From Henriciella sp. (GTDB taxonomy: Bacteria > Pseudomonadota > Alphaproteobacteria > Caulobacterales > Hyphomonadaceae), in NCBI GenBank assembly GCA_013214545.1, contig JABSQB010000002.1:131798-195797 (forward strand): a stretch of DNA of 64,000 nucleotides. The letters are read 5' to 3'. The notes under the pieces were generated by a model. The model saw nothing but the letters and a program-made list of their open reading frames with translations, had not been told where the DNA came from and did no database searches. The translations under genes and the position numbers were made by a program. Below, one piece after another: positions 8,302-49,604 of this stretch (position 1 is the stretch's first letter; each line of letters starts with the position of its first letter).

Positions 8302-9696
8302 CTATTCCTCCACGCCCATCTCCCACGCCCAAACACTGTCGCTGCCCCGCCACATGGCGTAGGTCACGGGGCCATCCAGGGCTGCACTCTTCATCAAGCG
8401 ACGGGCCCAATCGTCTCCAGGTTCCATCTCCGCTGAATGAATGCCCCATAACATTTGGGCCTGACGAAGACGTTTTTCGTCCAGCGATCCATAGAGGATG
8501 GGCTGACGGCCGCGCACACGAGAGAATTGCGCGAGGCGGAATACATCGCCGGTCCGCAGAGCCAACGGGGTAGCATTGCGTTCCGCGATCTCCATGACCG
8601 CCTGAGCCGTTGTGTCCACGTCGTCTCGCTTTTCGCCGCCGCCATCATACTGCACCAATGCCTGACGATAATCATCGGCGCGCTCTACCGCGCGAATGAT
8701 CCGGTTCATGATCGCCACGGCCGTGGCTGGATGTCGGCCCACGGCGGTTTCGGCCGAGAGCATCACTGCATCGACACCTTGATAGACGGCCGTCGCCACA
8801 TCCGAGGCTTCCGCGCGCGTCGGGGCTGCGTTTTCGACCATGCTTTCGAGCATTTGGGTCGCAACGATCACCGGCTTGGCTGCGTTGCGTGCCACACGCA
8901 CGATGCGCCGCTGGATTAGCGGGACTTCTTCTGGTGGGAACTCTACCCCGAGATCCCCGCGCGCAATCATCACAGCGTCCGTAGCATCGATGATGGCGTC
9001 GAGATTATCGATCGCTGCGGGTTTTTCGAGCTTTGCTACGATCATCGCCCGGTCGCCAATCAGACCGCGAGCCTCTTCGATATCAGCGACGGTCTGCACG
9101 AAGGAAAGCGCGATAATATCGACGCCCATATCCAGTGCGAAGGCCAAGTCGCTACAGTCTTTGTCGGACAATGCAGGCACAGGCAGCGCCTTGCCGCGAA
9201 CGGTGAACCCTTTGCGGTCCTTGAGAACACCCGGCAGCTCGGAACGCACTCGCGGTTTGTCGCCGGCGGCAATCACGGTGAAAATCAACAAGCCATCGTC
9301 GGCGAGAATCGTATCGCCTTCTTCGAGCACCGAAAGGATCTCAGCCCGTGGAACCGGGATGGTGTGTTCGGCATCCGTTTCTTGGCCGACCACTAAGTCA
9401 TATTCACCGCGCATCTCAAGTTTCAGCGCACCGCCCGGAAATTTTCCAACGCGTATTTTCGGTCCTTGAAGGTCTGCAAGAACGGCCAGAGGGCGGCCCA
9501 ACAGCTCTTCCGTCATTCGAATGACGTCACAGGTCTTTTTGTGTTTCTCTTGCTCGCCATGACTGAAATTCAGGCGGAAGACGTCGACGCCCGCTTCCGC
9601 TAACAACCGAATAGTTCCAGGCGCAGAGCTACCCGGTCCTAGTGTTGCGATGATCTTGGCGCTTCGTCCACGCAGGCCGGCTGCCCTCTTGCTCAT
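8302..9696 (-). CDS. pyk: Pyruvate kinase
   Basis: The 464-residue enzyme converts phosphoenolpyruvate and ADP to pyruvate and ATP. Characteristic parts are the N-terminal KIIATLGPGSS and FRLNFSHGE, the catalytic block MIARGDLGVEFP, and VATQMLESM followed by AEASDVATAVYQGVDAVMLS. The ATG at 9696 follows AGGGGAGC and lies one base beyond the eda stop, so it is the last gene of the zwf-edd-glk-eda-pyk operon. The C-terminal regulatory domain is short, ending around WAWEMGVEE. Placement with the ED genes fits a role in the final step from the ED pathway. Confidence 0.95.
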   Translation of the reverse strand: MSKRAAGLRGRSAKIIATLGPGSSAPGTIRLLAEAGVDVFRLNFSHGEQEKHKKTCDVIRMTEELLGRPLAVLADLQGPKIRVGKFPGGALKLEMRGEYDLVVGQETDAEHTIPVPRAEILSVLEEGDTILADDGLLIFTVIAAGDKPRVRSELPGVLKDRKGFTVRGKALPVPALSDKDCSDLAFALDMGVDIIALSFVQTVADIEEARGLIGDRAMIVAKLEKPAAIDNLDAIIDATDAVMIARGDLGVEFPPEEVPLIQRRIVRVARNAAKPVIVATQMLESMVENAAPTRAEASDVATAVYQGVDAVMLSAETAVGRHPATAVAIMNRIIRAVERADDYRQALVQYDGGGEKRDDVDTTAQAVMEIAERNATPLALRTGDVFRLAQFSRVRGRQPILYGSLDEKRLRQAQMLWGIHSAEMEPGDDWARRLMKSAALDGPVTYAMWRGSDSVWAWEMGVEE

Positions 9697-9697
9697 A

Positions 9698-10339
9698 TCA
9701 AGCTCCCCTGCCGAGCTCCGCGGCTTCGCGAACTTTGGCCTCGATTCCAGCCCAATCACCAGCCTCCATTTCGGCCGGTGATGCGATCCAGGTTCCACCC
9801 GCCGCGATCACGTTTGGCAGGCTGAGATAGTCCTTCGCATTGTGTGGCTTCACACCGCCGGTTGGCATAAAATCGATATGCGGTAACGGCCCCGCCAACG
9901 ACTTTAGGAAGTTCTCGCCACCTGATGCTTCGGCTGGGAAGAATTTCAGTACGCCATAGCCTTCTTCGAAACGCGCCATGGCCTCACTTGCGGTCGCAAC
10001 ACCCGGAAGGATTACACCATCATGATAGGCCAGTGCCTTTAGCAGTTCAGGCGCCGTGCCAGGCGACACAAGAAAATCAGCGCCCGCTTTAAGCGCCGCG
10101 TCGACATCACCCTCAGAGCAAATCGTGCCGGCGCCGACAATCAGCTCCGGCTCCGCCTGTTTCATTTCCTCAATTACTTTGAGTGCGACCGGCGTGCGCA
10201 AGGTGACTTCAGCGCTACGCAACCCGCCATTTATGAGCGCTGATGCAAGCGGAGCTGCGTGCTCCACCGCGGTCACGGTCAATACGGGAACGATGGGCGC
10301 ACCATGCAGCGCCTCTCGAAAGGTCGCGAGATTGATCAT
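9698..10339 (-). CDS. eda: KDPG aldolase (2-keto-3-deoxy-6-phosphogluconate aldolase)
   Basis: The 213-residue class I aldolase splits 2-keto-3-deoxy-6-phosphogluconate into pyruvate and glyceraldehyde 3-phosphate. The Schiff-base lysine lies in L-K-F-F-P-A-E, preceded by the VGAGTI and FLVSPG strands and followed by FMPTGGV. It overlaps the glk stop by ATGA and lies one base from pyk. Length and motifs are normal. It is the second dedicated ED enzyme, after edd in the same operon. Confidence 0.96.
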   Translation of the reverse strand: MINLATFREALHGAPIVPVLTVTAVEHAAPLASALINGGLRSAEVTLRTPVALKVIEEMKQAEPELIVGAGTICSEGDVDAALKAGADFLVSPGTAPELLKALAYHDGVILPGVATASEAMARFEEGYGVLKFFPAEASGGENFLKSLAGPLPHIDFMPTGGVKPHNAKDYLSLPNVIAAGGTWIASPAEMEAGDWAGIEAKVREAAELGRGA

Positions 10340-20084: not shown

Positions 20085-21032
20085 ATGACCGCAAAAACCC
20101 AAGATTCCAGTTACATAGCGACCGCAGTTGCGCCGAACACGGTTGCTTTGGACGCGCTTGAAACAGGTCTGAGAGCGGCGCTCGGAGCGGCCGGTCTGTC
20201 ACCCTCAGGTGAAGCACGCCTCCTCAGCACTCAAGGCAAATGGTCGGCGCTTGAAATCCCCGTAAATGCCGTGGATGAGGCCCTACCGAACCATCGCCGA
20301 GCCCTGCGCGAAGCGTGGCGCCGTAATGACTCAGAACCGGCTGACCTGTCACTCCTTGGAACACAGCACCGCAAGAAGAAGCTCCTGGTCTCGGACATGG
20401 ACTCCACAATCATTCAGCAGGAGTGCCTCGACGAGCTCGCAGCCTATGCCGGCCTCAAGGATAAGATCGCTGCGATCACCGCGCGGGCGATGGCGGGTGA
20501 ACTCGACTTCGAGGAGGCTCTGACCGAACGGGTTGGCAAACTGAACGGCTTGTCGCTCAGCGCGTTGCAGCAATGCTTCGATGAGCGGATCACACTGATG
20601 CCGGGCGCGAAGACGCTGACGGCAACGATGGCGGCGCATTCGGCCTTCTGTCTGCTGGTCTCTGGCGGCTTCACCTTCTTCACCTCACGCGTGGCCGCTG
20701 AGACCGGATTCAACGCCCATAAAGGCAACACGCTGATAGATGATGGCGCCGCGCTGACCGGCGAAGTTGGTCGGCCCATTCTTGGCCGTGAGGCGAAGCT
20801 GGAAGCCCTCGATGATTGCGCCTTTGCGAACGGGATCACCCGAGCCGATGCGCTCGCTATGGGCGATGGTGCGAACGACCTTGCGATGATTGAAGCGGCT
20901 GGCCTCGGCCTCGCCGTGCATGCCAAGCCAATTGTGGCTAAGGCGGCCGACGCAGCGATCAATGTCACGGAGCTGACAACCGCGCTCTACTTCCAGGGCT
21001 ATACGGACGATGAAATCGTATGGCGGGACTGA
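20085..21032 (+). CDS. serB: Phosphoserine phosphatase
   Basis: The 315-residue HAD-family phosphatase makes L-serine in the last biosynthetic step. HAD motif I is D-M-D-S-T-I-I near residue 104. Motif II is in LLVSGGFTFF, and the C-terminal metal site is in AMGDGANDLAMIEAAGLG. The N-terminal 95 residues form a divergent ACT-like region. The start at 20085 is preceded by AGGA; the frame is open further upstream, but that part overlaps miaA. Its TGA abuts the stop of the convergent Do protease (TGATCA). Confidence 0.94.
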   Translation: MTAKTQDSSYIATAVAPNTVALDALETGLRAALGAAGLSPSGEARLLSTQGKWSALEIPVNAVDEALPNHRRALREAWRRNDSEPADLSLLGTQHRKKKLLVSDMDSTIIQQECLDELAAYAGLKDKIAAITARAMAGELDFEEALTERVGKLNGLSLSALQQCFDERITLMPGAKTLTATMAAHSAFCLLVSGGFTFFTSRVAAETGFNAHKGNTLIDDGAALTGEVGRPILGREAKLEALDDCAFANGITRADALAMGDGANDLAMIEAAGLGLAVHAKPIVAKAADAAINVTELTTALYFQGYTDDEIVWRD

Positions 21033-35224: not shown

Positions 35225-35321
35225 TAGGGGTCTCCGTCATCATGAGTGTGACGGAGATATGCTTTACGCGCACGTCAACGACAAGCCGTGACGTTGCGTG
35301 ATCGATCCTTATGGCAATGGC

Positions 35322-35930
35322 CTAATTCTGATTGTAACCGTCGCGATCAAGGACCTTGTTGAGCTCCATGAAGTAGCCATCGCGGTCGAACAGATAACAG
35401 GTGCGCACCACGATATCCGGACCATCGCCGCGGCCAGGATAAGTCGTATTGCTGGCCTCAGTGGTCACTTTGATGCCCGGCAGTTCCGCCGCAGCATCGC
35501 AATGCTCGTCGACCTTTTCGGTGTTGAAGACCAGGATGGCATCGCCGATCCCCATCCGCTCCGGCGCATAGCCGCGCTCAAGCGGTGGATCGAGCCATTC
35601 GAGCAAACCAATCCAACCGACCCAGCTATCATTCGAGCTGAGCAGAACCAGACGTGCCTTCGCCCCTGGCTCACCCGCTGGCAAAGCGACGCCGCTCATT
35701 GTGACTTCGGTATCGTAATTGACTTCGAACTCGAGCACGTCGCGATAGAGCTTCAGGGACTCATCGATGTCATCGACGATGAGACTGACGCGGCGCAGAT
35801 CGGTGGGGAACTTCTGCTCGTCGGCGTTTGGCGCGGCAACGGTGGTCGACGAGGCCGGCGCCTCTGCTGCCTGGAGCGCGCAGCCAGACACCAAACCGAC
35901 CGCCATCAACGCTGCTATCCAGTGTTTCAT
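35322..35930 (-). CDS. VOC (glyoxalase-like) domain lipoprotein
   Basis: The 202-residue protein begins with a lipoprotein signal (VGLVSGCALQ, lipidated at Cys17) and an Ala/Ser/Pro linker. A vicinal-oxygen-chelate domain follows (RRVSLIVDDIDESLKLYRDVLEFEV; then DILVF-like DAILVFNTEKVDEHCDAAAELPGI and FDRDGYFMELNKVL). VOC enzymes are usually cytosolic, so an outer-membrane or periplasmic member is unusual. Metal ligands cannot be assigned with certainty. It is divergent from the peptidase at 36090. Confidence 0.8.
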   Translation of the reverse strand: MKHWIAALMAVGLVSGCALQAAEAPASSTTVAAPNADEQKFPTDLRRVSLIVDDIDESLKLYRDVLEFEVNYDTEVTMSGVALPAGEPGAKARLVLLSSNDSWVGWIGLLEWLDPPLERGYAPERMGIGDAILVFNTEKVDEHCDAAAELPGIKVTTEASNTTYPGRGDGPDIVVRTCYLFDRDGYFMELNKVLDRDGYNQN

Positions 35931-36089
35931 CCTCGTCTCCCAATCCTTGAAATCCTAGCCTTTTGTGAGCCAGACTCGCCATCAGGTCAAATGATATATC
36001 CTTTGATGCTAGCTTTCTGTTGCGACACCGCCGCGAATACGACACTTTCGACGCATAGATTCGGCTTTGACGAGGAACAGGGAGCTCCC

Positions 36090-37472
36090 ATGCGTACCAT
36101 TGCCGCCAGCTTAAGCGCACTTTCTATCGCCCTCACCGGACTGGCTCTGCCAGCCCACGCCGAACAAGTTACATCGGCCAAATCGACGGGTCTCATCCTG
36201 ATGGATGAGGAAGAGTATGACGCCCTGCCAGAGCGCGATCCATTGATGCGCGGGCGGCTTCCGCAATTTGTCGACCTGAGCAGTTTCTTCCCGACCCCGG
36301 GCCATCAGGGCGCGCAAGGCTCGTGCGTCGGCTGGGCGGTCGGCTATGCGCTGAAAACCTATCAGGAAGCGCTTGAGTTCAACATCTCACAGCCGCAAGC
36401 CTGGGATCATTTCAGCCCGGCCTTTGTTTTTAACTCCATCAAGCAGGGCAATGATTGTAGCGCTGGCAGTCGCATTTCAGATGCCCTCGAATTCGTCGCC
36501 AACACGGGCGCGGTGCGGATGGATGACTTCCCCTATGAGGAGGCCCAGTGCTATCCACCCAGCGAGGATATGAGCTCGCTTGCCCGCGACTACACAATCA
36601 AAAGCTATCGCCGCCTGCAGCGCGACGGCATGCTGTTCGCCATCCGCGAGGCCCTGTCGAACGAGAAGCCGGTCGTCATCGCGATGCGGGTCTTCCCAAG
36701 CTTCGAAGACTGGGATGGCGGCGGCAATTATCGCCACGATCCAGATATTGAGTTCCAGGTCGATTATCATGCCGTCACAGTGGTCGGGTATGATGATGAG
36801 CGCCGCGCGCTCAAGATCATCAATTCCTGGGGCACCGAGTGGGGCGATGACGGGTTTTTCTGGATGGATTACCGCGCCGCGCGCCAGTTGATTGCAGAAG
36901 CCTATGTCACCACCGACCGCCTATTCGATGAGCCGTATCCCGAAGAAGACGGCATTGTCCTGGCGCTCGATCCGAACTCGCCGCGTGGCAACAGCGCTGC
37001 GTCTGGCGCACCCATCGAGGAAGAAGCCGATGAGGCGCCGCCAGCTGAGCCTATCCAGCTCGATGTGAACATGCTGGCCAACGCGGTCACAGGTCATGTC
37101 GGACGTAGCCCGGAAGGCCAGACGCCGATGGGCTATGATTTCTATCCCGCTTCCGTCTGGCTTAATCTGGATGAACCTTATCTCGAGCAGATCGAGTCTG
37201 TGCGCTACTACTTCTACCACCGGACGTTCTTCAATCCGATGCGGCCGGTCGAGGACTCGAACGTCTTCCTGGCGACCTGGAAAGGCTATGGCTGCATCGA
37301 GAATGCGGAAGTCAAAGTGAAGCTGAAGACAGGCGAGGAACTCGCAGCGCCGTTTAATCTGTGCACGATCTGGGATCGTTTTCATCCCGGCGCATTCCGC
37401 AAGGATGGCAGCCGTGGCGGCACCGCGCCGCTGTCAGATCATGAGGATTTTGACAAACGGAACGGCGACTAA
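36090..37472 (+). CDS. Secreted papain-like (C1) peptidase with C-terminal YEATS-like domain
   Basis: The 460-residue protein has a Sec signal (ALTGLALPAHA) and a C1A peptidase domain with Gln73, Cys79 (QGAQGSCVGW), His227 (VDYHAVTVVGY) and Asn245 (IINSWGTEWGDDGF), so the catalytic set is complete. No propeptide of normal length is visible. A Pro/Glu linker (about 300-325) leads to a beta-rich domain at about 353-425. Its pattern VRYYFYHRTFF and NVFLATWKGYGCIENAEVKV matches prokaryotic YEATS domains (my recognition, not searched). GGGAGC precedes the ATG; open frame further left overlaps the divergent gene. Confidence 0.85.
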   Translation: MRTIAASLSALSIALTGLALPAHAEQVTSAKSTGLILMDEEEYDALPERDPLMRGRLPQFVDLSSFFPTPGHQGAQGSCVGWAVGYALKTYQEALEFNISQPQAWDHFSPAFVFNSIKQGNDCSAGSRISDALEFVANTGAVRMDDFPYEEAQCYPPSEDMSSLARDYTIKSYRRLQRDGMLFAIREALSNEKPVVIAMRVFPSFEDWDGGGNYRHDPDIEFQVDYHAVTVVGYDDERRALKIINSWGTEWGDDGFFWMDYRAARQLIAEAYVTTDRLFDEPYPEEDGIVLALDPNSPRGNSAASGAPIEEEADEAPPAEPIQLDVNMLANAVTGHVGRSPEGQTPMGYDFYPASVWLNLDEPYLEQIESVRYYFYHRTFFNPMRPVEDSNVFLATWKGYGCIENAEVKVKLKTGEELAAPFNLCTIWDRFHPGAFRKDGSRGGTAPLSDHEDFDKRNGD

Positions 37473-40434: not shown

Positions 40435-41112
40435 GTGGAATATCAAGACGTGGTGATGGGGCGCCGCAGCATACGTGGCTATCAGGACAAGCCTGTCCCC
40501 AAAACAGTGATCAAGGACGTGCTGGAACTCGCCATGCGCGCACCAACTTCTTTGAACACGCAGCCCTGGAACTTCTACGTCGTGACGGGTGAACCGCTCG
40601 ACAAAATCCGGGCTGGAAATGTCGAACGCAATCTCGCCGGTGTGCCCGACATACGCGAGTTCCGCAAAGGCCCTGGTTATGAAGGAGCTCACCGCGAGCG
40701 TCAGATTGGCATCGCCATCCAACTGTTCCAAGCCATGGGCATTGAGCGCCATGACAAGGAAAAGCGTCAGGACTGGGTGCTGCGCGGGTTCCGCCAGTTC
40801 GATGCGCCCGTGTCGATCGTCGTGACCTATGACAAGTCGATCCATGGCTCTGATATCGCGCCCTTCGATTGCGGCGGCGTCGTCAATGCGCTCGTCAATG
40901 CGGCCTGGTCCAAGGGCCTTGGTTGCGTCATCAATTCACAAGGCATCATGCAATCACCTGTCGTGCGCGAACATGCGGGTATTCCGGATGATCAGGTGAT
41001 CATGATCTGCGTCGCCATGGGCTGGCCGGATGACAGCTTTCCGGCAAATGCCGTCGTCTCCAAACGCAAGTCTGTCGATGAAGGCGCCGTTTTCGTCGGG
41101 TTCGACGACTAG
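40435..41112 (+). CDS. Nitroreductase-family flavoprotein
   Basis: The 225-residue protein starts at a GTG behind CAGGAGG. It has the nitroreductase fold: the FMN-binding GRRSIRGYQDKPVP, then MRAPTSLNTQPW with the conserved Asn/Gln/Pro, and CVAMGWPDDSFPAN near the end. It likely reduces nitro or quinone compounds using NAD(P)H. Substrate is unknown. Convergent with the DsbA-like gene; the stops interlock at CTAG. Confidence 0.9.
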   Translation: MEYQDVVMGRRSIRGYQDKPVPKTVIKDVLELAMRAPTSLNTQPWNFYVVTGEPLDKIRAGNVERNLAGVPDIREFRKGPGYEGAHRERQIGIAIQLFQAMGIERHDKEKRQDWVLRGFRQFDAPVSIVVTYDKSIHGSDIAPFDCGGVVNALVNAAWSKGLGCVINSQGIMQSPVVREHAGIPDDQVIMICVAMGWPDDSFPANAVVSKRKSVDEGAVFVGFDD

Positions 41113-41681
41113 GCCGTTTCCAGGATCAGTTCTTCAACCCACGGCAAGTGTTCACGGCCAACAAAGATCTGCTCGGCAATGACATAGGCTGGCGCGCCAA
41201 CAATGCCTGCGGCTTCGGCTTCTTCCTGTGCCTTGGCCAGGGCGGCGGGCGCTGAGGCCAAATCGCCTGACAGTGAAGCGCCGCTGCGGGCGATCAGGTC
41301 ACTGACCACCGTTTCATCATTCAAGTCCGCATGATCGGACCAATACGCCTCGAACGCAGCCTGGATGAAGGGAAGCTTGTCGCCCTCCAGCTGCGCCAGC
41401 GTGCCGAGCGCCAGATCGGTCTCGCCGAGCGGATCCGGATAGCGCAGATCGATGCCCTGATACGCCGCATACTTGATTGCCAGCGCCCGCTGCGAGGCAG
41501 CGCGCACCCGGCGATGGCTTTCCCCGATAGATTCCTGTTCGCCGAGCTTCGGCACGTCGCGCTCAATGGTCTTGAACGCGCGCCAGTCAATGGCGAGACC
41601 ATGCTTCTCAGCCAGCGCCAGTGTCGGCTTCAACGCCAGATAGGCGCCCGCAGATTTGAAATCCATATAGAGCGTCAACAT
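41109..41681 (-). CDS. DsbA/GST-kappa family protein, 2-hydroxychromene-2-carboxylate isomerase-like (copy 2)
   Basis: The 190-residue thioredoxin-fold protein starts MLTLYMDFKSAGAYLAL, where the Ser-x-x-Tyr/Ala position replaces the DsbA CxxC, as in HCCA isomerases. A helical insertion with LEGDKLPFIQAAFEAYW follows, then the cis-Pro segment IVGAPAYVIAEQIFVGREHLPW. It lacks a catalytic Cys and probably uses glutathione. Its ATG shares one base with the stop of the neighbouring paralogue (TGATG). Substrate is unknown. Confidence 0.85.
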   Translation of the reverse strand: MLTLYMDFKSAGAYLALKPTLALAEKHGLAIDWRAFKTIERDVPKLGEQESIGESHRRVRAASQRALAIKYAAYQGIDLRYPDPLGETDLALGTLAQLEGDKLPFIQAAFEAYWSDHADLNDETVVSDLIARSGASLSGDLASAPAALAKAQEEAEAAGIVGAPAYVIAEQIFVGREHLPWVEELILETA

Positions 41682-42355
41682 CAGGCAATCTCGTAAGCAA
41701 TATCGGGGGCCGGTCCCTCGCGCCCGGTCAGCGCCCAGCGCAGACAAGGAATATGCTCGCGGCCAAACAGGATGTCATCGCCGAGCACATAAGTCGGAAC
41801 CCCATATATCCCGTTCGGATGAAACTGCAGCTGCAAATCATCATGCAGCGCCCGGCCCCGGCCTGAGGCATATTCTGCAAAGCCCCCAGCATCGATCCCG
41901 GCTTGTTCCAACACACCCTCGACCACGGAAATGTCTTCAATGTCGAGTTCGCGGCGCCAGAATGGCGGATACACAGCGCGAAGATAATCCGGCAGGCGCT
42001 CGCGGGCGGTCTCCATCACCCACAGGATGGCCATGTTCGGCAGGCTGGACTCCCAGATCTTCTCCGTGCCCTTGAGCATCAAACCCTGACGCTCTGCATA
42101 TCTGCGCGCGTCACGATAGGAGTATCGGATGGCGTTCCAGGTACGCTGGCTCCGCCCTTTAGATTCCACCACTTTGCCCTTCTTCTTTTCCGCTGAGCCG
42201 AGATAGCTCGGAATGTTCAGGGTCAGTGGTCGCCAATCGAATTGCAGTCCAAGCTCGGCCTCCAGCGCCAGCGTTGGTTCGATGGCGACAAAGGCGTAGG
42301 GGCTCTTGATGTCCACATAGACGATGAGCGGCGCGTCGCTTTTCAACACATGCAT
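41681..42355 (-). CDS. DsbA/GST-kappa family protein, 2-hydroxychromene-2-carboxylate isomerase-like (copy 1)
   Basis: The 224-residue protein has VYVDIKSPYAFVAIEPTLAL at the N-terminus, with Ser-Pro-Tyr at the glutathione-binding spot, a long helical insertion, and the cis-Pro region GIYGVPTYVLGDDILFGREHIP. It is a paralogue of the next gene, with the same GREH(I/L)P ending. The tandem, coupled pair may form a heterodimer, which is an inference. No ring-cleavage or naphthalene genes are nearby, so a role in aromatic breakdown is not supported by context. Confidence 0.87.
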   Translation of the reverse strand: MHVLKSDAPLIVYVDIKSPYAFVAIEPTLALEAELGLQFDWRPLTLNIPSYLGSAEKKKGKVVESKGRSQRTWNAIRYSYRDARRYAERQGLMLKGTEKIWESSLPNMAILWVMETARERLPDYLRAVYPPFWRRELDIEDISVVEGVLEQAGIDAGGFAEYASGRGRALHDDLQLQFHPNGIYGVPTYVLGDDILFGREHIPCLRWALTGREGPAPDIAYEIA

Positions 42356-42487: not shown

Positions 42488-43879
42488 ATGGCGGATATTT
42501 TTGCCGAGAACAATTCGGCACGTGGGGTATCAGATCGCGCGCAGCGTATCGCGTATTGGGTTTCACTGACCGGACTAGTGGCGAACACAATCTTGTTCGC
42601 TCTGTACGTTTCGAATGACAGCCTGTCAGCCTTCCTGCTCGCCAATTACATCTATTACACCCTGGCTATGTCGCTCATTGCCTGGAGCGCATATCGAAAC
42701 TGGCATTTCCGGCCGATCCTCTCTGCCGGGATCGCTGCGATCTACTTCCATATGTGGGGCACGACCTTTTTCGATGCCTGGGCCGGTCACGCGTCAATTC
42801 TCAGCTTCCCCACCCTGCTCTTTGTTCCCTTATGCATGATCCTGATTTCCGGGCCGCGCGTCTTGATGGCCTATGCAGCAACGCAGGCCATCCTCGTTTA
42901 TTGCTACATGAAGTATTTCGGCGCCGGGGTTTTCGGGTTCGATCCGACGCAAGTCGATACATCCAACTTGGCGGTGCTGCTCGCGATGATGTCTGGCATC
43001 ACGCTTTTTGTGCTCGCCATCGTGAGTTATGCGCGGCGCGCGACAGATGATCGATTGCTGCGCCTCGTGCGCGAGACGGAGCGCCTCGCGGCTCAAGATC
43101 CGCTGACAGGATTGAAAAACCGCCGCGCTTTCATGGAAGATGTCGAAGCGTTTTGGGCCAGTAAGACGCCCTTCTCAGTTGTTTTCGTTGATCTCGATCG
43201 GTTCAAGCCGCTGAATGATGAGTATGGCCACGCCGTCGGTGACAGCGTGCTTCAGACCCTAGCGTCCCGCCTGCAGGATCATCAGGCCGCGCAAACAGTT
43301 GCCCGATTTGGCGGGGATGAGTTCGCGCTCCTGATCAAGGAACAAGAGAACGATGAAGCGCTCGATGAAATCGTGCACCAGATGTACCGCCAATGCGTAT
43401 CAGAGATCGATATTGAGATCGCGAAAGTCTCTGTCGGCGCTTCGTTCGGCTATACCAAAGCCTTCGTGGATGCTGGCAGCGTCAGCGATCTGCTGCACGC
43501 CGCTGATACAGCGATGCGGCGCTGCAAGGCCAATGGCGGCGGCGTCGAGAAGTTCGACTCCGCAAAAGACGACGCAACCTTCGCGTCCACTGCGTTTGAA
43601 GATCTCTTCCGAAAAGCGCTGCGAACAGGTCAAATTCAACCCGCGCTTCAGCCTATTGTCGATGCGAAAACGCGCGAGATTGTCGGCCACGAATTGCTCG
43701 CCCGATGGGTTGAGAGCGGTTTGTCGCGCACGCCCTCTCCGGCTGAGTTCATTCCGGTCGCTGAGAAGCTTGGCCTGCTGAATGAAGTGCTTTGGATCAC
43801 TTTGAGATCAGCGCTCGCGGCCATGAAAACTCGCCCGGGCTTTCTCGCGATCAATGTGTCGCCGTCACAGCTTTCCTAG
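42488..43879 (+). CDS. GGDEF-EAL membrane protein, N-terminal part ending at an in-frame TAG
   Basis: The 463-residue reading frame has five or six transmembrane helices (residues about 23-180), a complete GGDEF domain with active motif G-G-D-E-F (275-279) and the first third of an EAL domain with E-L-L-A-R (402-406). It stops at TAG 43877-43879 right after INVSPSQLS, in the middle of an EAL strand. The same frame continues for 148 codons (next entry). If translated as is, it would have a GGDEF domain and a truncated EAL. The I-site RxxD is absent. It was evidently a single 612-residue gene. Confidence 0.88.
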   Translation: MADIFAENNSARGVSDRAQRIAYWVSLTGLVANTILFALYVSNDSLSAFLLANYIYYTLAMSLIAWSAYRNWHFRPILSAGIAAIYFHMWGTTFFDAWAGHASILSFPTLLFVPLCMILISGPRVLMAYAATQAILVYCYMKYFGAGVFGFDPTQVDTSNLAVLLAMMSGITLFVLAIVSYARRATDDRLLRLVRETERLAAQDPLTGLKNRRAFMEDVEAFWASKTPFSVVFVDLDRFKPLNDEYGHAVGDSVLQTLASRLQDHQAAQTVARFGGDEFALLIKEQENDEALDEIVHQMYRQCVSEIDIEIAKVSVGASFGYTKAFVDAGSVSDLLHAADTAMRRCKANGGGVEKFDSAKDDATFASTAFEDLFRKALRTGQIQPALQPIVDAKTREIVGHELLARWVESGLSRTPSPAEFIPVAEKLGLLNEVLWITLRSALAAMKTRPGFLAINVSPSQLS

Positions 43880-44326
43880 AGCGCGTTCGTGGACAAGCTG
43901 CAGGACACGGTCGAATCGAATGGCTTTTCGATGGACCGGATCGAACTCGAAATCACGGAACATGTCGCGTTCAGAAATCTCGACGACAATATTGCCACGC
44001 TGACGAGGGCCCGCGACCTGGGCTGCAAGATCGTGCTCGATGATTTCGGATCCGGATACTCGTCTCTGTCGCTGCTGGAAGAGCTTCCACTGGACAAAGT
44101 CAAACTGGATAAAAGCCTGCAATCCTCTAACCAGCAGCGCGGCGTGCTCGCCGCGACCATACGCCTGGCGCGGGACCTTGGGTTCCTGTGCTGCGTGGAA
44201 GGGATCGAATCTGAAGCTGCGGCGCAGTTTGCGACTGAAAAGGGTTGCCGACAAATGCAGGGCTTCTGGTTCGGCCATCCGGAAACCGTGGGTGCGGTTT
44301 TGGCACAATTGAAAATCGCTTCCTGA
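43880..44326 (+). pseudogene. C-terminal EAL domain part, in frame after the TAG of the GGDEF-EAL gene
   Basis: The 148 codons after the TAG at 43877 are in the same frame. They carry the remainder of a normal EAL domain: DRIELEITEH, IVLDDFGSGYSSLSLL (metal-binding Asp pair), KVKLDKSL with the catalytic-type Lys, and CCVEGIESEAAA with the late Glu. All are intact, so decay is recent or the stop is read through. A GTG at 43889 could start a separate EAL fragment, but no ribosome binding site stands out and it would lack the E-L-L signature. Confidence 0.85.
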
Positions 44327-45882: not shown

Positions 45883-46044
45883 CGCTTTCGTCCCATTAGC
45901 TTGCAGGCGAGTGTGCGCAGCACGGCCTGAATAGTCCCTGAATAGATTAGGAAAATTAAACGGCCAAATCTTGCCGCAGCGTCAGACTTGCGAGCGCCGG
46001 GCCGAACTCGCACATACGCAGGCACCATAAATAAGGATTTCCAT

Positions 46045-47157
46045 ATGTCTGGAACTGCCCCGCTTTTCGAACCGCTGACCATTCGCGGCCTCACCATTCC
46101 CAACCGAATTGTCATGGCGCCGATGACGCGCTCTTTCTCTCCGGGCGGCGTGCCCGGCGAGAATGTTGCCGAATACTATGCCCGCCGCGGCGATGCTGAT
46201 GTCGGCCTGATTGTGACCGAAGGCACCACGGTCGGGCGCGGCGGTGCGTCGAACGATCCTAAAGTCCCGAACTTTCACAAGGATGACGCTCTGAATGGCT
46301 GGTCCAACGTGGTCAACGCGGTGCACAAGACGCCCGGCAAGGTCGCGCCTCAGCTCTGGCATGTCGGCATGATGCGCAAGCCAGGCACGGGCCCGGACCC
46401 AGACGCCATCTCTGACAGCCCGTCGGGTCGCACGCATAAAGGCAAGCAGGTTCAGCCTGAGCCAACCGAGAGCGAAGTCGATGATATGGTCATGGCCTAT
46501 GCAAATGCGGCTGGAGAGGCCAAACGCCTCGGCTTTGACGCCATCGAAATCCATGGCGCCCATGGCTACCTGATCGACGAATTCTTCTGGAATGTCATGA
46601 ACACGCGCGAAGACAAATATGGCGGCGACCTTGCCGATCGCGCCACGTTTGCGGGCGACATCATTCGCGAGTGCCGCAAACAGGTCGGCGACGATATGCC
46701 GATCATCCTGCGCTTCTCGCAGTGGAAGCAGCAGGAATACACCGCCCGCCTCGCCGAAACACCGCAAGAGCTTGAGCCGTTCCTGCAAGTCTTCGCGGAT
46801 GCAGGCGTCGATGTCCTGCACGCCAGTCAGCGCCGCTGGTGGGAGGCTGAATTCCCGGAAATCGACGGCGACGAAGGCCTCAACCTGGCCGGCTGGTGTA
46901 AGAAGATCACCGGTCTGCCTTCGATCACAGTCGGCTCTGTCGGCCTGTCATCAGACTTTATCGGCGCCTTCGCCGGACAAGGCTCCAAGACCCGTCCGAT
47001 CTCTGATGTGATTGAGCGTCTCGAAAAAGGCGAGTTCGATATGGTTGCGGTTGGCCGCGCTCTTCTGCAGGACCCTTTCTGGGCGCAGAAGATCAAGGAT
47101 GGCCGCACGGACGAGCTGGCCGATTATGACGCCAAGGCGCTCGCAACGCTGTACTAA
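46045..47157 (+). CDS. Old Yellow Enzyme family NADH:flavin oxidoreductase
   Basis: The 370-residue FMN enzyme starts with LFEPLTIRGLTIPNRIVMAPMTRSFS and has the active-site region QLWHVG, the substrate His/Asn-like FDAIEIHGAHGYLIDEFFW and a C-terminal phosphate-binding VAVGRALLQDPFWAQKIKDGR. It reduces activated C=C bonds such as those of enones or nitroesters using NAD(P)H. AAGGA lies 8 bases before the ATG. The nearby DUF3833 lipoprotein and desaturase follow on the same strand, so it may share a transcript with them. Confidence 0.93.
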   Translation: MSGTAPLFEPLTIRGLTIPNRIVMAPMTRSFSPGGVPGENVAEYYARRGDADVGLIVTEGTTVGRGGASNDPKVPNFHKDDALNGWSNVVNAVHKTPGKVAPQLWHVGMMRKPGTGPDPDAISDSPSGRTHKGKQVQPEPTESEVDDMVMAYANAAGEAKRLGFDAIEIHGAHGYLIDEFFWNVMNTREDKYGGDLADRATFAGDIIRECRKQVGDDMPIILRFSQWKQQEYTARLAETPQELEPFLQVFADAGVDVLHASQRRWWEAEFPEIDGDEGLNLAGWCKKITGLPSITVGSVGLSSDFIGAFAGQGSKTRPISDVIERLEKGEFDMVAVGRALLQDPFWAQKIKDGRTDELADYDAKALATLY

Positions 47158-47214: not shown

Positions 47215-47763
47215 ATGCGCCTCTCAGATCTCTTTGCCCCGACGCTTGCTGTCGCGACCAGCGCTGCCGTAACCACAGGCTGCGTATCTGGCCCCAATAT
47301 CGCTGAATTCACCGACGCCCCCCGCACGCTGGTGCTGGAGGAGTATTTTGAAGGCGAGACCACAGCCTACGGCATCTTCGAAGATCGCTTCGGCAAAGTC
47401 CGGCGCAGCTTCAAGGTCGACATTACAGGGACAGTTGAAGACGGCGTGCTAACGCTAGATGAGCGCTTCATCTATGATGATGGCGAGCGCGATACCCGGG
47501 TCTGGGAAATCGATATTCTCGGCGACGGAAATTATCGCGGCACCGCGGGCGACGTCCCCGATTATGCCGAAGGCAAAGTCGCTGGAAACGCCTTCAACTG
47601 GAAGTACAAAGTCGACCTGAAAGTCGGCGATAGCGTCTGGAATGTCGGGTTCGATGACTGGATGTATTTGCTGGAAGACGGCGTCCTGCTCAATCGTGCT
47701 TACGTCACCCGATTCGGGATCCGTATTGGTGAAGTGACGATCGCGTTCCAGAAGGCCTCCTAG
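47215..47763 (+). CDS. DUF3833 family lipoprotein
   Basis: The 182-residue protein has a short lipoprotein signal (SAAVTTGCVSG, Cys about residue 23) and a beta-barrel-like part with W-x-x-x-V-G-F-D-D-W and LVLEEYFEGETTAYGIFEDRFG, characteristic of DUF3833. Members are predicted lipid-binding or lipid-handling proteins in proteobacteria; function is not known. It follows the Old Yellow Enzyme gene by 57 bases and precedes a desaturase, which agrees with a membrane-lipid theme. Confidence 0.88.
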   Translation: MRLSDLFAPTLAVATSAAVTTGCVSGPNIAEFTDAPRTLVLEEYFEGETTAYGIFEDRFGKVRRSFKVDITGTVEDGVLTLDERFIYDDGERDTRVWEIDILGDGNYRGTAGDVPDYAEGKVAGNAFNWKYKVDLKVGDSVWNVGFDDWMYLLEDGVLLNRAYVTRFGIRIGEVTIAFQKAS

Positions 47764-47817
47764 GTAAACCTCCCTATCAAAAGTTGACGCCTGCGTCATT
47801 TTTTGAGATAAGGGTGT

Positions 47818-48012
47818 ATGCAACAGGTCATCAAATCGATTTTTTATCTGGGGCCCCTGCTCTTCGGGCTCGGATTTCTCGCGCCGCTCACGGCACAGAT
47901 TATTGAGGCCATGGCCTGGACACCGCCGTTTGGATTGTCCTCACTTATGACGGGTTTGATTGTTGGCGGAACACTGGGCCTGCTGGCACAAATTCGGGGG
48001 ACCTGGATATGA
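47818..48012 (+). CDS. Small two-helix membrane protein coupled to the desaturase
   Basis: The 64-residue protein has two hydrophobic helices (about LGPLLFGLGFLAPLTAQIIEA and LSSLMTGLIVGGTLGLLA). Its TGA stop overlaps the desaturase ATG (ATGA), implying translational coupling. I do not recognise a family. It may assist or regulate the desaturase; that is inference from overlap alone. Confidence 0.72.
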   Translation: MQQVIKSIFYLGPLLFGLGFLAPLTAQIIEAMAWTPPFGLSSLMTGLIVGGTLGLLAQIRGTWI

Positions 48013-48881
48013 GCCCGACGCAAGATCTCTCAGCGCTTTCCGAAGCCGAACTGATGCGCCTGGAACGCGAAGTTGCGGCACGTCACATCAATAAATTCCC
48101 TTACCTGGCAGTGGTTTGGGCGTTCGGAAACTTTGCGGTCTGGCTATCGCTCTGGCCACTGGTTTTCCTCGGCATCATCCCGCTTTGGCTTGGCTTCATC
48201 GTCGCCACGCTGAACATTATGCTGTCCTATTTGCCGAGCCATGAGGCGCAGCACGACATTATTGCCAAGCCGGGCACCAAGCTGCGCTGGCTCAATCAAT
48301 TGGTCGGCCACGTCTCTACCATTCCGCTGGTCATGCCCTATCGCACCCTGAAATGGACGCATATGGAGCACCACAAGCACGCCAATGACCCACAACTAGA
48401 CCCCGACTATGGGACGCACGCAAAGGGACCGTGGCAAGCACTTTGGAAGACCTTGGAAAATCGCCAGCCAAGATCGGAATGGACGCAATCCTATCCGAAA
48501 ACGCTTGAACGCGTTGGCAAGACCGGGGCGATCCTTGATGCCATCCTGTACCAGCTTGTGTTTTACGGCATTCTGTTCGGACTGGCCTGGTCCGGCTATG
48601 CGATCGAGGCAGCCTTGCTCTGGTGGTTGCCGCGCCACATCGCGTTTAGCTATATCCAGTATTATCTCAGCTGGGCACCGCACAATCCTGATATGTCCAA
48701 GGGACGCTATAAGGATACACGCAGCTTCCGCGCCATTCTCGGCAATATCGGATCGATGGGAATGCAGTACCATATCGTTCATCACCTGCACCCGCGCATC
48801 CCGCTTTACCGGACGCCGCGCGCCTATTGGGAGATGAAGCCGATCCTGGAAGCCCGTGGCTGCGATATCCACGAGCTTTAG
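48009..48881 (+). CDS. Membrane fatty acid desaturase-type enzyme
   Basis: The 290-residue protein has three His boxes: H-E-A-Q-H-D (78-83), H-M-E-H-H-K-H (118-124) and HIVHHLHP near 257-264, which bind the di-iron centre. Four hydrophobic segments flank them. This fits the membrane-bound desaturase/hydroxylase superfamily; the exact substrate (fatty acyl chain, carotenoid or other) is open. It overlaps a small membrane-protein gene by ATGA. Six bases separate its stop from the convergent hydrolase stop. Confidence 0.9.
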   Translation: MSPTQDLSALSEAELMRLEREVAARHINKFPYLAVVWAFGNFAVWLSLWPLVFLGIIPLWLGFIVATLNIMLSYLPSHEAQHDIIAKPGTKLRWLNQLVGHVSTIPLVMPYRTLKWTHMEHHKHANDPQLDPDYGTHAKGPWQALWKTLENRQPRSEWTQSYPKTLERVGKTGAILDAILYQLVFYGILFGLAWSGYAIEAALLWWLPRHIAFSYIQYYLSWAPHNPDMSKGRYKDTRSFRAILGNIGSMGMQYHIVHHLHPRIPLYRTPRAYWEMKPILEARGCDIHEL

Positions 48882-48887
48882 CGCACC

Positions 48888-49604
48888 CTAGACCGGGGCT
48901 TTCCCTGCCAGCGTATTAGCGACGATCTTCCAGACAGTCGGGCTGGTCCCCATGGCGAAATGGGTGCTGCGCACCACAATGTTGCGCGCCTGATTGTTAT
49001 AGACATCGCGCGCTGCCTGCCAGCCGACCACACCATCGGACTTGCTGTAAATCACGGTGAGCGGCTGGCTCAGTCCGATCGAGTTGCGTTCATGCACTTC
49101 CTGCTCGAACGCGTCCATGTCGAGGCCCTCGCGGCGCGCATAGATCGCGCCCACAGAGGTGTATTTCGGTCCGCCGATCAAAGGCGTTCCCATAGTAATG
49201 ACTTCGCGCACAGAAGGGCTGAACAGGCGCGCCGTCTCGCGCGCGATGACGCCGCCTAGGCTCCAGCCGATCAGCGTGACGGGTGCAGCTTCGCGATTAG
49301 CGACGTCCTGGACGTTTTGACCAAAGGTCTGCGTCAGCTGGTCAACAGCGCCGTCATTCACGCCGAGGCCCCAGGTCGAGGCATCATAGCCGAGATAGCG
49401 CAGATATAGCGCCAGCGGCTGCATTGATAGCTCCGGCGCCGTGAAGCCAGGCAACAGGATCACTTTGCGCCCATCACCGCGCGGCGCTGCAGCCAGCGAT
49501 GGCGTCATGATAGGAAACTTCAGAAATTCGAGCGGTGTGCCGAGTTCACGCAGACTGGAGAGCAGGCTTGGCTTCTCACAATCTGTGGGCATGTCTTGAA
49601 TCAT
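48888..49604 (-). CDS. Alpha/beta hydrolase, lipase-like (paralogue of the 30 kb gene)
   Basis: The 238-residue enzyme has KVILLPGFTAPE, nucleophile elbow G-W-S-L-G-G, Asp in YSKSDGVVGW and His in STHFAMG, in the same order as the hydrolase at 29968-30747. The two share MGTP/LGSP-type strands as well. No signal peptide is visible. Neutral-lipid esterase activity is plausible from the fold and from the desaturase next to it. Confidence 0.85.
   Translation of the reverse strand: MIQDMPTDCEKPSLLSSLRELGTPLEFLKFPIMTPSLAAAPRGDGRKVILLPGFTAPELSMQPLALYLRYLGYDASTWGLGVNDGAVDQLTQTFGQNVQDVANREAAPVTLIGWSLGGVIARETARLFSPSVREVITMGTPLIGGPKYTSVGAIYARREGLDMDAFEQEVHERNSIGLSQPLTVIYSKSDGVVGWQAARDVYNNQARNIVVRSTHFAMGTSPTVWKIVANTLAGKAPV

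Follow-up and report, generated by a model that had tools for sequence, protein, structure and literature searches.

A recent nonsense mutation probably accounts for an in-frame TAG within the EAL domain of a membrane GGDEF-EAL gene in Henriciella sp.

We examined a 64,000-nucleotide stretch of Henriciella sp. DNA (the window) in which a gene for a membrane GGDEF-EAL protein is interrupted by a single stop codon. Read straight on the forward strand, the frame at 42488-44326 gives 463 residues, a TAG at 43877-43879, 148 further residues, and a TGA at 44324-44326. This reading bears out the initial annotation, which had described one TAG splitting an otherwise open frame, and the three motifs that it reported as intact, DDFGSGYSS, KVKLDKSL, and VEGIE, all lie downstream of the TAG in the same frame. 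The initial annotation had offered a recent nonsense mutation, a sequencing error, and read-through as explanations. As judged from the sequence, the best account is probably that a full-length membrane GGDEF-EAL gene acquired a nonsense mutation very recently, within the lineage of this genome; this account is supported by four of four uninterrupted syntenic orthologues and by a downstream part that has not decayed.

Domain content on either side of the TAG

The features of the interrupted gene are listed in Table 1. The TAG falls within the EAL domain, directly after INVSPSQLS. When the full frame was searched against Pfam with an X at the TAG, GGDEF was matched at residues 201-350 (E 4.2e-35) and EAL (PF00563) at residues 374-598, the latter over profile positions 4-236 of 236 (E 2.2e-54). 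The domain in the full frame is thus complete and holds E402, N456, E488, D518, D519, K539, E571, and Q591, which we take to be the metal and substrate ligands of EAL enzymes and which are invariant across 19 aligned proteins. Two of these residues, E402 and N456, precede the TAG, and the other six (E488, D518, D519, K539, E571, and Q591) follow it. Furthermore, the full frame can be aligned with the solved proteins 5m3c and 4rnh across both GGDEF and EAL.

Table 1. Features of the interrupted GGDEF-EAL gene (window coordinates)
Feature	Position	Strand	Evidence
Truncated open frame: membrane segment (by eye), GGDEF, first ~40% of EAL; 463 aa	42488..43879	+	ORF list, translation, Pfam
GGDEF domain, residues 201-350, signature intact	43088..43537	+	Pfam; G275, G276, D277, E278, F279 invariant in 19 aligned proteins
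EAL stub 5' of the TAG, residues 374-462, profile 4-96 of 236	43607..43876	+	Pfam
In-frame TAG; sense codon in four syntenic orthologues	43877..43879	+	Sequence, codon alignment
Same-frame remainder of EAL with conserved residues, 148 codons + TGA	43880..44326	+	Translation, Pfam, alignment
Mechanical ORF from GTG, 145 aa, EAL profile positions 103-236 only	43889..44326	+	ORF list, Pfam

The 463-residue product by itself retains the GGDEF domain (PF00990, residues 201-350, E 2.9e-35) with its signature, and its EAL match stops at profile position 96 of 236, short of a complete domain. RxxD is the inhibitory-site motif of GGDEF proteins; none was seen by eye 5' of the GGDEF domain in the translated frame. 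With about 60% of the EAL domain lost (profile positions 97-236 of 236), the product is expected to have no phosphodiesterase activity. Because the GGDEF domain is intact, it is plausible that the truncated product is a diguanylate cyclase without phosphodiesterase.

We propose that the ancestral gene would have encoded a full-length membrane GGDEF-EAL protein and that, in the lineage of this Henriciella sp. genome, one EAL codon would have been changed to TAG very recently. Translation would then end at 43877 by ordinary RF1 termination, yielding a 463-residue protein made of the membrane part, an intact GGDEF domain, and about 40% of the EAL domain. Such a product, deprived of six of the eight conserved EAL ligand residues, would be unable to act as a phosphodiesterase. 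This scheme takes the TAG base to be real and termination to be efficient; the product would be either unstable, in which case the function would simply be lost, or still able to act as a diguanylate cyclase.

Orthologues and conservation downstream of the TAG

A survey of 29 genomes of the genus, that of the strain itself included, returned at least 150 GGDEF/EAL matches, and among the 150 listed, the window gene is the only one with an internal stop. A second GGDEF match of the same genome that had been flagged with one TAA (C84) was set aside, the stop being the normal end of a 454-residue protein with a receiver-like N-terminal part (by eye). The best four of the listed matches in other genomes of the genus are 80% (L009), 54% (L011), 53% (L012), and 52% (L010) identical to the interrupted one and contain no stop. 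On the upstream side, their loci have a DSBA-like gene in opposite orientation, and on the downstream side genes of 141 and 357 residues, neither of which has a Pfam match; the flanking genes are 80-84% identical upstream and 64-82% identical downstream. Because their neighbours are the same, we take the four as orthologues. They share with the interrupted gene the membrane-GGDEF-EAL layout, the neighbours, and the signature residues but differ in having a sense codon at the TAG column, namely Ser in L009, Asn in L010, and Ala in L011 and L012. Fourteen more distant relatives have Ala, Thr, or Ser there. The column is therefore variable, with Ser, Asn, Ala, or Thr across the 18 aligned relatives, as expected from the earlier claim that it usually holds an ordinary residue; rather than all ending at this point, the four syntenic orthologues are all uninterrupted. 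In a separate scan, the best named matches came from Hellea and Henriciella, both Hyphomonadaceae, at 35-42% identity.

The part downstream of the TAG is conserved as well as the part upstream. The nearest orthologue shares 364 of 463 residues upstream of the TAG and 124 of 148 (84%) downstream (Fisher p 0.20), and 84% identity of these 148 codons to an uninterrupted orthologue argues that the same-frame continuation is more than chance. By the NG86 method, dN to this orthologue is 0.141 before and 0.119 after the TAG, with dS saturated in both parts (1.39 and 4.10). Changes were also polarised with the three more distant orthologues as outgroups. On the branch of the interrupted gene, 29 changes fall before the TAG and 3 after it (Fisher p 0.053, before versus after, a borderline value in the direction of more constraint after the TAG, not less); the nearest relative's branch has 16 and 4 (between-branch Fisher p 0.41), and 54 and 17 changes were left without branch assignment. 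In these comparisons, the part 3' of the TAG shows no sign of relaxation or decay. Its conservation means that the stop is young, or is an error, or is read through, and the absence of decay is equally expected under a base-call error or functional read-through. A crude Poisson bound limits the neutral time since the stop to at most 0.4-24% of the branch in eight of nine settings and to 40% in the ninth, a rough dating because dS is saturated and the polarised counts are small. The lack of a further stop is weak evidence, as about half of the neutral simulations at 0.05 changes per site likewise ended without one.

Error, re-initiation, and read-through

A single base-call or assembly error, with the gene intact in the organism, would produce a lone stop without decay after it, and the genome is a draft of 138 contigs. 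We regard this explanation as rather unlikely. The window was compared with 63.4 kb of the nearest relative's contig by pairing mechanical ORFs of at least 90 residues, greedily, at an identity of at least 60% and an overlap of at most 60 bases, under which an internal stop would appear as a split or short match. Of the 52 pairs obtained, two represent the halves of the interrupted gene. The remaining 50, among them one truncated at the window edge, showed no internal stop; some of these differ at the N terminus through start choice, extensions, or, for 20444-20968, a short partner of 94 residues. The frame at 41109-41747 was removed by the overlap rule, and its match (41115-41681) has no stop. 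Many other matches contain stops, and those of overlapping or antisense frames were taken as spurious; in the three long ones examined (8305-9840, 45931-47154, and 47784-48878), the stop lies in a 5' extension ahead of the likely start. Thus, the window sequence looks clean on the regional scale, which says nothing on the single TAG base, and the 50 stop-free pairs do not support a generally poor or decaying region.

The same comparison revealed differences in gene content. The frame at 35298-37472 encodes a 724-residue protein with papain-like peptidase and pYEATS matches, of which about 240 N-terminal residues are absent from the frame of the G018 relative, whose contig is about 700 bases shorter there. 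Two frames, 47215-47763 (182 aa) and 48888-49604 (238 aa), have no partner among the pairs with the G018 contig, which is shorter there.

Gene fission, in which translation restarts just 3' of the stop and the two EAL pieces assemble, would find a possible start in the GTG at 43889, 9 bases past the TAG, from which a 145-residue frame runs. However, this GTG is an unremarkable codon inside the ancestral gene, where aligned relatives have Val, Leu, or Ile, no ribosome-binding site for it is evident by eye, and either piece holds just part of the EAL domain by Pfam, so that we consider fission extremely improbable. Programmed or tolerated read-through of the UAG, by which both a short product with GGDEF and a long one with GGDEF and EAL would arise, would fit the intact and conserved downstream frame. 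It also has a possible counterpart in Shigella, where two mutated diguanylate cyclase genes gave bands of full-length size despite nonsense mutations, with read-through as one possibility (PMC11327459). We nonetheless judge it very unlikely. The stop is absent from all four orthologues, and the TAG is therefore not a conserved device. Nor does the RNA beyond the stop show more stable folding than its shuffled versions: for the 120 bases that follow the TAG, z was 0.45, and 133 of 200 shuffles did equally well or better.

The decoding machinery of the genome likewise speaks against read-through. The initial annotation had suggested a search for amber suppressor tRNAs, and none with a CTA anticodon occurs among the 36 tRNA genes found, an incomplete set from which Ala-TGC and Ile-GAT, tRNAs that we would expect in this genome, are among those missing. 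RF1 is present: the prfA model scored 486.1 bits, above its cut-off of 423.25, on a 360-residue frame without a stop, which rules out loss of RF1. In bacteria, TAG tends to be the least used stop; here it is the commonest among the genes sampled, ending 24 of 51 window frames with a stop (the interrupted gene included) and, among the other complete window genes that were compared, 23 of 49. Other loci of the same genome gave 37 of 68 in a cruder count, in which a few loci overlap and one lies inside the window, and the corresponding figures were 25 of 51 in the nearest relative and 27 of 79 in 27 other genomes of the genus. With TAG at the end of about half of the genes, general suppression would affect about half of them, which is implausible. 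Neither a CTA tRNA nor RF1 loss or TAG avoidance, by which UAG suppression or reassignment would be recognised at the genome level, was found among the tRNAs and genes sampled. Altogether, the tRNAs, RF1, RNA folding, and stop usage yielded nothing positive for the read-through option beyond the intact downstream frame.

Two tRNA loci drew attention during this search. A second, divergent tRNA-Gln (TTG) at L144:1501-1574 (G000:C1:36362-36435), with similar genes in 5 of the 29 genomes of the genus, this one included, was considered as an odd UAG reader and rejected: its anticodon is not CTA, and the nearest relative has a similar tRNA although its orthologue contains no stop. A weak, shortened tRNA-Lys copy was noted at L160:204-274 (G000:C110:3183-3250); its last ~46 bases (by eye) are common to the full tRNA-Lys gene at L118:1501-1576, a pattern like that at the distal end of an element inserted in a tRNA gene.

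Parallels and meaning for c-di-GMP turnover

The closest parallel comes from Shigella flexneri, in which several diguanylate cyclase genes carry nonsense mutations, and three genes stopped before the GGDEF domain still yield c-di-GMP (PMC11327459). The authors invoke multiple starts and, where full-length bands appeared (two genes), suggest that the stop may be read through or decoded as selenocysteine (PMC11327459). The Henriciella gene resembles those genes in being a c-di-GMP enzyme gene with an early stop and domain sequence persisting beyond it (PMC11327459). In contrast, the Shigella flexneri stops precede GGDEF, whereas in Henriciella the GGDEF domain lies before the stop and EAL is cut; moreover, c-di-GMP was measured in Shigella flexneri, while the Henriciella gene is known here from its sequence alone (PMC11327459). 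In the literature on GGDEF and stop codon readthrough, covered in part, no case besides Shigella flexneri (PMC11327459) was found, and similarly partial coverage of the literature on Henriciella and c-di-GMP turned up nothing apparently related.

A leaky TAG fixed in the species, from which the cell would obtain chiefly a cyclase with GGDEF alone and a minor amount of full-length GGDEF-EAL protein, is highly improbable in our estimate. If it were true, termination efficiency would shift one enzyme between making and breaking c-di-GMP. The case would be of consequence only with proof of read-through, since the balance between two opposing activities would then depend on a single codon.

Under the preferred reading of a recent nonsense mutation, the change is an ordinary event, of a type often seen at the level of strains, and has little general bearing. 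Besides this gene, the genome holds 14 further GGDEF/EAL matches (15 loci in all), six of which extend through the EAL part of the query, and with 14 others present, the loss of one would be tolerable. If the TAG base is real, the strain would be short of one phosphodiesterase domain, and its c-di-GMP may be slightly raised.
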